Origin: Bolinopsis microptera
Taxonomy: Eukaryota; Ctenophora; Tentaculata; Lobata; Bolinopsidae
DNA length: 64,000 nt
NCBI RefSeq assembly: GCF_026151205.1
Contig: NC_087076.1
Coordinates: 374,001 to 438,000 of the forward strand
Direction of reading: 5' to 3'
Part shown: positions 2,354 to 50,700 of the stretch, piece after piece
Position numbering within the stretch: the first letter of the stretch is position 1
Layout: every line of letters begins with the position of its first letter
The notes under the pieces: generated by a model
Databases searched by the model: none
Told to the model about the DNA's origin: nothing
What the model saw: the letters and a program-made list of their open reading frames with translations, nothing else
Position numbers and translations under genes: made by a program

Positions 2354-2825
2354 TTCTCTCTCTCTCTCTCTCTCTCTCTCTCTCTCTCTCTCTCTCTCTC
2401 TCTCTCTCTCTCTCTCTCTCTCTCTCTCTCTCTCTCTCTCTCTCTCTCTCTCTCTCTCTCTCTCTCTCTCTCTCTCTCTCTCTCTCTCTCTCTCTCTCTC
2501 TCTCTCTCTCTCTCTCTCTCTCTCTCTCTCTCTCTCTCTCTCTCTCTCTCTCTCTCTCTCTCTCTCTCTCTCTCTCTCTCTCTCTCTCTCTCTCTCTCTC
2601 TCTCTCTCTCTCTCTCTCTCTCTCTCTCTCTCTCTCTCTCTCTCTCTCTCTCTCTCTCTCTCTCTCTCTCTCTCTCTCTCTCTCTCTCTCTCTCTCTCTC
2701 TCTCTCTCTCTCTCTCTCTCTCTCTCTCTCTCTCTCTCTCTCTCTCTCTCTCTCTCTCTCTCTCTCTCTCTCTCTCTCTCTCTCTCTCTCTCTCTCTCTC
2801 TCTCTCTCTCTCTCTTTCTCTCTCT
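2354..2825. repeat. (TC)n/(GA)n microsatellite, about 470 bp
   Basis: An almost pure dinucleotide run. On the minus strand it is (GA)n and starts directly after the TAG stop of IFT52, so the IFT52 3' UTR would begin with several hundred nucleotides of GAGA. The long Arg-Glu frame read from it is a repeat artefact. Confidence 0.95.
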
Positions 2826-47700: not shown

Positions 47701-50700
47701 AAGGATATTAATTAGTGAGTTCTAACGTAGTCAGTCACCATGTATTTTATACGCTGAAAGGATGTTAATTAGTGAGTTCTAAAGTAGTCAGTCACCATGT
47801 ATTTTATACGCTGAAAGGATGTTAATTAGTGAGTTCTAACGTAGTCAGTCACCATGTATTTTATACACTGAAAGGATGTTAATTAGTGAGTTCTAACGTA
47901 GTCAGTCACCATGTATTTTATACGCTGAAAGGATGTTAATTAGTGAGTTCTAACGTAGTCAGTCACCATGTATTTTATACGCTGAAAGGATGTTAATTAG
48001 TGAGTTCTAACGTAGTCAGTCACCATGTATTTTATACGCTGAAACGAAATGAACATAATACCTGTATCTCAAGTTGATGTATTCCAACAGCGAATGAGGA
48101 TGCCTGAGGGAAGTTGTTCTCCACAGTCTGGCATTGTTCCAGCAAGCAGTCTACAACTTCTTGTTGAGTCTCCAGTAGATAGGGCGACAACCGCTCGTTT
48201 ACCCAGTACTCCTCTAATCTGGAGATATCTTAGTTAATACTTTTGTGTAAATCTAGTAATACTATTAATTGCTATTATTAAATATGGTGCTTATATTATT
48301 TTATCTTATATTTATGCTTTTAAATTAGCATAATATAAGATTTCTAAATTATTACAGAATATGGTGTGGAGGCACACTCTCGAGGAACGTTTTGACGGTA
48401 CCGGCTGTGCTACCGAAATATTGGCTATTTTTGTTACTTTGTTATTGTCTCGCATAACAGACCACAGTGCCACGCTTATTGATCATATCTACACGAACAA
48501 TCTTGAAGATACAATAAGCTGCAACGTATTAACGACAGATCTGTCGGATCACTTAGCGATAGTTACAACAATTAATCTTGATAATACATCCACCAGCAAT
48601 TACCGCTCCGCATCTTATAATCAAAATCCAACACAAACCAACGTACGTAGTTTTAATGAGGCCAACAACCATAAATTTAGAGATTTAATAATGGAAGAAA
48701 ATTGGTCTGTAATACTAACAAATACCCCTGATGCTAACCAGCAGTTTGATTGTTTAAATTCGGCTTACAACAGGATTTATAACGCTGCCTACCCGACAAA
48801 AAGACAGTCCGAGCGCAGACAAAATGAACGTGTTAATCCCAAACCATGGATACTGCCCTGGCTTGAAGAAGCTATAGAACGTAAAAATCAGGCATATCAT
48901 GATTTTGTTAAGGAACCAGTTGATAGGAACCAGCTAAAATATGACCGTTTGAAAAAGTTTTGCACCAAACACGTTGACAAAGCCAAAAACATACACTACA
49001 AAAAATTCTTTGAACAACACAGATAATTCTAAGAAGCAGTGGCAGATGATTAACGGACTTCTGAATAAGAAACCAGGCAAACCTACATCGATAAAACTGT
49101 CGGACGAAAACGGACAAGTCAGCACTCCGGCAGCAGTAGCAGAAAAATTTAATGATCACTTCTCAAACATCGCTCCAAAAATTAAATCTGAAATTAGTAG
49201 TAGGACCACTTTCGATCCTGGTGGGGCCCAGGGGACACTACGTAACCCTTCTCCAAATAGTATCTACATAAAACCAGTCACAACTACCGAAGTTCAAGAC
49301 GTTATTAACCTATTTAAGAATAAAGCTACTCTTGACACCAAAATCCAACCACTCAAAATTGCCAACAGCTGTCATAATTTTACCACTGTATTGGCCCACG
49401 TTGTTAACAGCTCGTTCGAACAAGGGGTCTTTCCCGAAGCCTTGAAAACGGCAAAAGTAGTTCCTGTACATAAAGGTGGATCTAAAACTGACATCAAAAA
49501 TTACAGACCGATATCTCTACTTGCCACTTTCTCAAAAGTCTACGAAAAGCTTATGCACAATCGAGTCATAAATTTCTTGGATACCTACAATATACTTTGT
49601 GAAAATCAATACGGCTTCCGCCCAGGTAGGTCTTGTGAACATGCACTTCTTAATGCTAAAGACAGAATCCTCAATTCAATGTCTAAAAAGCAAGTTACTT
49701 TGCTCCTTTTGATTGACTTTAGCAAAGCCTTTGACCTTGTGGATCACTCCATACTCCTGAATAAGCTCGAGCACTATGGCATAAGAGGTCTAGCTTTAAA
49801 CTGGTTTAAATCATATCTTATGAACAGAAACCAGTTTGTATCAATTGGATCCTCTGAATCCTCAGCCAATCCAATTATTTACGGTGTACCCCAAGGTTCA
49901 ATTTTGGGACCTCTCCTTTTTATAATCTACATAAACGATCTTCCTCAAATATCAGAAATAGCTAATTTCATCATGTACGCAGATGATGCAAACATTTTCC
50001 TAACAGGAGAAAATATAAACGAGGTTTATGATAAGCTCAAAATTCTTAGCGATGTCTTAGTTAAATGGGTAGATAACAACGGATTAGCTCTAAATCTTAA
50101 AAAAACGAATTATATGATCTTTTCTCGACAAAGAAACCTCATTTATCGCGATGTAGTAATTTCTGGTGTCACAATCGAAAGAAAAACAGAAGCCCGTTTC
50201 TTAGGTGTTATAATAGATAACAAACTGAACTGGTCGCAACATATTTCTGCCATGAAAATGAAAATGGCCAGATACATTGGAGTCATGTACAAACTTAAAA
50301 AATATTTGCCTCTGGAAGCACGTTTACAAATATATCACAGCTTTGTGCAGTCTCACCTTAATTACTGCTCCCTCGTCTGGGGTTTTGCTGCCAAATCCCA
50401 TATAGAAACACTATTTGTTAAACAGAAAATGGGTCTTAGAGCAATACTACCAGGTTTTGTTAATTACTGGTACAAAGATGGTACACCACCAGCAAGTACC
50501 AAGTCTGGTTTCTATGTACACAAAATATTGACAGTTCATAGTATCATCGTAAAGAACGCATTAGTTTTTATACATAAGCTAAAAAACTTCCCAAGTCTAG
50601 TGCCTCCCTCTATAAAGAAAACAATACCTAACAGTGCACCAATATTTAACGTCGCCGATCCGGATTCGAGTCTTACAGCTTTATGGTCAGATGAATACGG

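Follow-up and report, generated by a model that had tools for sequence, protein, structure and literature searches.

How do tandem arrays come to lie on the splice junctions of the genes that host them? The question is raised by a 64,000-nt stretch of the genome of the ctenophore Bolinopsis microptera (NC_087076.1, positions 374,001 to 438,000; hereafter the window), in which an earlier note, written from the sequence alone, reported minisatellites whose unit contains a real splice junction of the host gene. Our analysis indicates that this is a real feature found at many places in the genome, of a kind already known under the name of mirages, but probably new in this phylum and with much longer arrays.

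Arrays on exon borders in the window

Using TRF, we recovered the arrays of the window where the note had placed them, and on either strand, at donors as well as acceptors, their units hold real splice junctions, as do units outside the window. Six arrays lie on borders placed by homology: IFT52 has four of them, two on the donor side and two on the acceptor side, while GINS4 and a gene with a weak SH2 match have one acceptor-side array each. A seventh sits on a junction taken from an ab initio model, and of the 'at least eight' arrays that had been claimed, six or seven are thereby confirmed. Five of the six contain 41, 27, ~7, 33 and 28 nt of exon and the sixth, 12 kb long, contains 0 nt; the reported 26-45 nt of exon per unit therefore describes four of the six arrays and fails for those at 20984-21104 (~7 nt) and 8835-20843 (0 nt).

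The clearest anatomy comes from IFT52, which we rebuilt on the minus strand as eight exons. Exons 1-5 join in frame, and the joined protein aligns with solved IFT52 over residues 9-417 (435 bits) and matches three IFT52 Pfam domains. One of the seven junctions is less supported, namely the 5' border of exon 6, where the exon start was set at a glycine codon. Exon 1 (MDSNRGK...HMNAG; 21105..21174), placed by joining the exons and by the alignment, which starts at residue 9, is adjoined by a donor-side array of a 45-bp unit in 2.7 copies (20984..21104; TRF, sequence and joined exons). Its copies contain AACGCAG/GTAAAC (slashes mark exon borders), with ~7 nt of exon read by eye beyond the TRF edge. 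Intron 1 also holds an acceptor-side array of a 47-bp unit in ~259 copies (8835..20843; TRF and joined exons), which stops exactly at the border of exon 2 (..CTCAG/GTCTCAAG). Exons 2 (8659..8834), 3 (8313..8447) and 4 (8037..8136) were each placed by the ab initio model, the joined exons and the IFT52 alignment.

In intron 4, an acceptor-side array of a 41-bp unit in 39 copies (6329..7971; TRF and joined exons) combines 14 nt of intron end with 27 nt of exon 5. This exon (6278..6355) was placed by the joined exons and the alignment, the ab initio model having put it wrongly inside the array. Exon 6 (4642..4812, 5' border not placed) and exon 7 (4304..4486) have the support of the ab initio model, joined exons and alignment. 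Exon 7 overlaps 41 nt of a second donor-side array (3463..4344; TRF and joined exons), whose 43-bp unit, present in 20.5 copies, consists of 39 nt of the end of exon 7 plus GTAA. Exon 8 (2827..3183; joined exons and alignment) is followed by the stop codon at 2824-2826; a (TC)n run of ~470 bp (2355-2825) finishes right at this codon.

GINS4, likewise on the minus strand, has an acceptor-side array of a 57-bp unit in 59.7 copies (44643..48044; TRF, joined exons and alignment) between an upstream exon (..HQLEIQ; 48062..48218; ab initio model and Pfam) and a downstream exon (RIKYMVTDYVRCRLKK...; 44573..44675; ab initio model and alignment). The unit comprises 24 nt of intron end, including a branch-point-like CTAAT and CAG, and 33 nt of exon (RIKYMVTDYVR), and 17 nt of intron remain outside the array. 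Alignment to SLD5/GINS4 proteins starts at the first residue of the downstream exon, and the product matches Pfam Sld5. Protein homology thus backs the IFT52 and GINS4 junctions, as the note had held.

On the plus strand, the SH2 gene has an exon at 31018..31445 (ab initio model and weak Pfam SH2 match), an acceptor-side array of a 65-bp unit in 12 copies with 28 nt in the exon (33332..34115; TRF) and a downstream exon at 34088..34291, of which the ab initio model holds only the 3' part (34255-34291) and whose 5' border was set by coding phase and the SH2 match. That match scores 18.1 bits against a cut-off of 21, yet it covers the whole profile and runs across the junction. The decoy copies of this array read CACGGTAAG, with a donor-like site, and the functional copy reads CACGGAAAG. 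The seventh case is an acceptor-side duplication of a 64-bp unit in two copies (23870..23999, minus strand; TRF), with a junction from the ab initio model, which uses the acceptors of both copies; a Pfam search with its exon gave no match. No placed junction could be matched to the two 36-bp arrays (29910 and 30877) or to the 28-bp array that starts the list of smaller repeats at 24045.

Recurrence in other genes

Beyond the window, we worked with the assembly of 264.65 Mb in 232 contigs, which include at least 13 large ones (15-26 Mb), and located exons for kinesin, TCP1, SNF2, UCH and HECT, five protein families in all. The gene sample draws on 58 loci, which after merging make up 52 gene regions (200 kb). 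Regions were picked by family, except for C13:13930500, which was preselected after its repeated matches at 89-bp spacing; myosin genes, several UCH, HECT, TCP1 and kinesin genes, and loci L001-L010 and L039-L047 fall outside the sample. The family exons served to train a small gene finder, which yielded 301 introns, including 121 with homology on both sides (median 182 nt, 5th percentile 110 nt). Rows with a period <16 bp or <2.5 copies were dropped, among them a 13-bp donor array of 21.7 copies at C12:14832325 and the two-copy case at C5:9863126.

Exon homology places three further junction arrays: 89 bp x 6 in a USP gene (C13:13930500), with identical copies, 59 nt of exon and a complete 73-nt intron ahead of the first copy, and two in kinesin genes, 49 bp x 7 (C2:6084284) and 53 bp x 2 (C5:9863126). 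Less support is available for a kinesin array of 33 bp x 41.7 (C12:14426585; unit SLSELG/GTAAGT), where the functional copy lies beyond the locus, and for a USP array of 46 bp x 3.2 (C5:16874900), where the donor exon has no family match. At C13:13709200, an array of 22 bp x 122 lies on an ab initio junction without homology. The ab initio gene finder mis-splits three of these arrays (C12:14426585, C13:13930500 and C2:6084284). Further arrays reach to 0-5 nt from a border, and their TRF limits take in no exon sequence; they lie at C12:14832325 (21 bp x 29.6 and 13 bp x 21.7), C4:14272300 (21 bp x 31.4), C1:9920400 (46 bp x 2.6) and C13:6708000 (20 bp x 2.5). Two ubiquitin-protease regions on C13, L059 and L070, have a 30-bp intron unit in common (AACATGTTATCACACTCCAAGCAGTGATGT); of these two, only L059 showed the 89-bp junction array.

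Search for tandem splice words

We also searched the genome for tandem splice words. Three tandem copies of AGGTAAGT with gaps of 12-42 nt gave 1380 matches compared to 12 for the reversed word, and the single word gave 10758 compared to 7965. Triples of TTTCAGGT gave 303 matches compared to 28 in the control, a comparison made at the level of matched triples. At the level of arrays, C1 (26.2 Mb), for which the listing is apparently complete, has five donor-word arrays, two of them from one 32-bp satellite, compared to two arrays for the control donor word in the whole genome (264.65 Mb), one of which itself has a donor-like site in its unit (P = 1.1e-4, or 8.5e-4 if the 32-bp satellite is counted once). 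Acceptor-word arrays on C1-C4 numbered 10 among the matches listed. Scaled to the genome, these counts correspond to ~50 (16-118) donor-word and ~30 (15-56) acceptor-word arrays. The test rests on few words and its array-level control on a single one. A GTTAC/GTAAC core is common to many unrelated intron arrays (L031-L035, L029, L075, L069 and L011), which form a repeat class of their own, and because GTTAC-type and low-complexity units are widespread, counts for arbitrary control words may be lowered, which complicates such controls.

Six splice-word arrays, hand-picked among units of at least 43 bp, were fetched with their expected exon side. Five came from the 21 arrays among the matches listed and the sixth from another listing; at least one eligible array, C1:14124772, lies outside the six. 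In five of the six (acceptor arrays L078-L081 and donor array L083), a coding frame at the end of the array carries on beyond it, and the stretch fetched for L082 falls wholly within its array. The frame at L078 matches UBE2W from its first residue (8.7e-24), and that at L081 matches human GMP synthase (0.0053) and is probably the GMP synthase gene. L079 has an ephrin-receptor-like domain over the cut-off (1.3e-5) in an exon absent from the gene finder's calls, L083 a weak sushi match below its cut-off (0.0026), and L080 an open frame running to a stop, with no Pfam match.

Enrichment at junctions compared with geometry

The note argued that chance could not easily put eight arrays exactly on exon borders. 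As a null, we let the founder unit fall uniformly over all positions at which it touches an intron, so that the chance of spanning a border is set by the lengths of unit and intron. Because introns are short (median 182 nt), uniform birth alone would put ~10-14% of intron arrays on a border, and the argument from chance was overstated: the sample has 7 of 30 on a border against 2.9-4.3 expected, or 3-5 of 24-28 after exclusions.

With intron lengths pooled, 7 of 30 arrays span a junction against 2.9 expected (P = 0.023), or 5 of 28 against 2.7 without two doubtful arrays (P = 0.13). In the subset with periods of 20-50 bp and at least three copies, 5 of 17 span a junction where 1.6 are expected (P = 0.015), and 4 of 16 where 1.5 are expected (P = 0.05) once the doubtful arrays are removed. 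Conditioned on the intron in which each array lies, with the array reduced to one unit and with intron lengths set by hand and some guessed where the upstream exon lies beyond the locus, 7 of 30 compares to 4.3 expected (P = 0.10), and 5 of 28 to 3.9 without the doubtful arrays (P = 0.34). Leaving out the preselected C13:13930500 alone gives 6 of 27 against 3.2 (P = 0.08; length-pooled 2.6, P = 0.04); leaving it out together with the doubtful arrays gives 4 of 25 against 2.8 (P = 0.30; length-pooled 2.5, P = 0.23), and dropping C13:13709200 as well gives 3 of 24 against 2.7 (P = 0.53; length-pooled 2.4, P = 0.42). An earlier geometric test on the mis-split ab initio models gave 7 of 30 against 5.6 (P = 0.27). 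Among introns with homology on both sides, none of 10 arrays of at least 2.5 copies spans a junction (1.2 expected), and 1 of 18 does at 1.9 copies or more (2.7 expected). The window, which was picked for the feature, has 5 of 7 arrays in homology-placed introns spanning a junction against 2.1 expected (P = 0.02), and adding this selected window to the sample gives 12 of 37 against 6.5 (P = 0.01). Junction enrichment is thus between none and about threefold by the geometry tests and higher by the word test; that local duplication is favoured at junctions is, on these figures, possible at most.

Arrays lying wholly in coding sequence are depleted in the gene sample: two were found, where an even spread per nt would give 11.6 (P = 0.0007). 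Their periods of 24 and 18 are both multiples of three, and the small number of coding arrays and their periods are as predicted by purging.

Decoy splice sites

The arrays retain largely intact decoy sites. In the four window acceptor arrays, the decoy AG is intact in 38 of 38, 239 of 239, 59 of 59 and 12 of 12 full copies, and in an IFT52 donor array the GT is kept in 16 of 20 copies. Across five acceptor arrays, 38-92% of the column pairs of the unit are kept at least as well as the AG pair, and this comparison of unit columns showed no trace of selection on the decoys in either direction. A frame read through from an inner acceptor runs into a stop codon in both GINS4 and the USP gene, and the correct protein needs the outermost site each time, which suggests exon definition at acceptor arrays. 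A long acceptor array is in this sense a natural experiment, in which intact 3' splice sites follow one another by the tens or hundreds; that only the last acceptor could yield the right protein argues for exon definition even with short introns.

Origin of the arrays

We lean towards reading these arrays as minisatellites of the mirage type, in which duplications arise widely, those in coding sequence are purged and those at junctions survive through splicing. A short stretch straddling an exon-intron border would be duplicated in tandem, and the copies would then multiply by unequal exchange or slippage. The spliceosome would keep using the copy joined to the real exon, that is, the 5'-most donor or the 3'-most acceptor, and because of this a border duplication would do little harm; the remaining copies, decoy sites included, would turn into intron. 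Duplications inside coding sequence would be purged, whereas those in introns or across borders would persist and, introns being short (median 182 nt), a sizeable part of the surviving arrays would be bound to straddle a border. This corresponds to the second alternative of the note, survival of only those duplications that splicing can remove, which fits our results best.

Possible, though clearly less probable, is that duplication occurs more often at exon borders, perhaps owing to structures formed during transcription or to repair at splice sites, and that the borders thereby play an active part in seeding minisatellites. The word test points this way (five donor-word arrays on C1 compared to two control arrays genome-wide; 303 compared to 28 triples of TTTCAGGT), as do the length-pooled tests (P = 0.015-0.13) and the window (5 of 7 against 2.1, P = 0.02). 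The conditioned counts (7 of 30 against 4.3, 5 of 28 against 3.9, 4 of 25 against 2.8) speak against it, as does the count of 0 of 10 in introns flanked by homology on both sides, and the array-level control is a single word possibly lowered by GTTAC-type or low-complexity units. The stronger form, that junctions are birth hot spots several-fold over other intron sequence and drive intron growth up to 12 kb, we regard as slightly more doubtful still. Could the arrays instead have made the introns, by duplication of an AGGT proto-splice site as in the Rogers model? Collapsed to one unit, three introns are short by hand measurement (GINS4 41 nt, IFT52 intron 4 79 nt, USP 73 nt), all below the 5th percentile (110 nt) of the 121 homology-supported introns, and the IFT52 unit at 3463-4344 is nearly all exon (39 of 43 nt). 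Acceptor units, however, hold 14-41 nt of intron end, some of it branch-point-like or pyrimidine-rich, and so copy an intron end that already existed, and the USP gene has its complete 73-nt intron ahead of the first copy. Pure intron gain was rejected because the units include existing intron ends, and we consider it improbable.

The intact decoy AG in every full copy of the four window acceptor arrays might be taken to indicate a selected function in splicing or expression of the host genes. We think this very improbable: in five acceptor arrays 38-92% of column pairs match or exceed the AG pair in conservation, one donor array has lost the GT in 4 of its 20 copies, and copy numbers in the window vary from 2.7 to 259. 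A selected function was rejected on the ground that many other columns of the unit are conserved as well as those of the splice sites. Least probable of all is an assembly artefact or a set of wrong gene models. Long identical repeats are hard to assemble, and the USP array consists of six identical copies, but copies in the window arrays differ among themselves, the functional SH2 copy has GGAAAG where the decoys have GGTAAG, and the junctions rest on protein homology. An artefact was rejected as the general cause since copies differ; copy numbers may still be inexact.

Relation to known systems

Excerpts of two reports on lancelets describe mirages as minisatellite-like tandem duplications spanning an exon-intron boundary, in the Branchiostoma genes Adh3, globins BflGb6 and BflGb9, TnC (troponin C) and PGBD5, with units of 10-72 bp (Adh3), 150-160 bp (globins) and 60 and 108 bp (PGBD5) (PMC3087553, PMC3902484). 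As described there, the duplicated sites leave the mRNA undisturbed in Adh3, the globins and TnC, and the Adh3 mirage shows length and somatic instability (PMC3087553, PMC3902484). The arrays here are alike in that the unit spans the boundary and that both 5' and 3' boundaries are involved; they are not new in kind. The unit spans a real boundary in three IFT52 arrays (the fourth abuts it), in GINS4 and in the SH2 gene, and outside the window in UBE2W and the probable GMPS gene, among others; donors are represented by 3463-4344, 20984-21104 and L083, and acceptors by 6329-7971, 44643-48044 and L078-L081. Copy numbers differ, at 3-6 in the BflGb6 globin and 2-7 in PGBD5 according to the same excerpts, compared to 2.7 to ~259 in the window. 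Among the papers listed by searches of the open-licence literature, none reports such arrays in a ctenophore. These results suggest that mirages are not peculiar to lancelets and lend themselves to genome-wide counts, and junction arrays offer a testable path by which introns could grow.

Intron gain by tandem duplication is related. Human introns have reportedly come from tandem arrays (Zhuo 2007), and the potato RdRp gene is said to have gained an intron by tandem duplication. The likeness lies in a local duplication carrying splice sites, with repeats turning into intron; the difference is that most units here copy intron end as well as exon. In the Rogers model, as cited in PMC3087553, introns are gained by tandem duplication of AGGT proto-splice sites. 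An exon-only unit in which AGGT gives both sites is not what we found in GINS4, IFT52 intron 4, the SH2 gene or the USP gene, and the nearest to it is the IFT52 donor array at 3463-4344 (39 nt of exon plus GTAA). Ordinary intronic minisatellites are likewise tandem intron units of some 13-90 bp, but the unit here holds the gene's own functional border.

Other features of the window

A GC-rich 24-bp array of 49 copies (24769-25940) keeps long open frames on both strands, with 463 aa between stops on the minus strand. Adjoining GINS4 is a long open frame on the plus strand (48953-50935) with reverse-transcriptase-like motifs, which we take to be of the non-LTR element type. Octamer arrays of TTGTATCC and GTAACCAG lie at 51941-52477 and 54254-55078.
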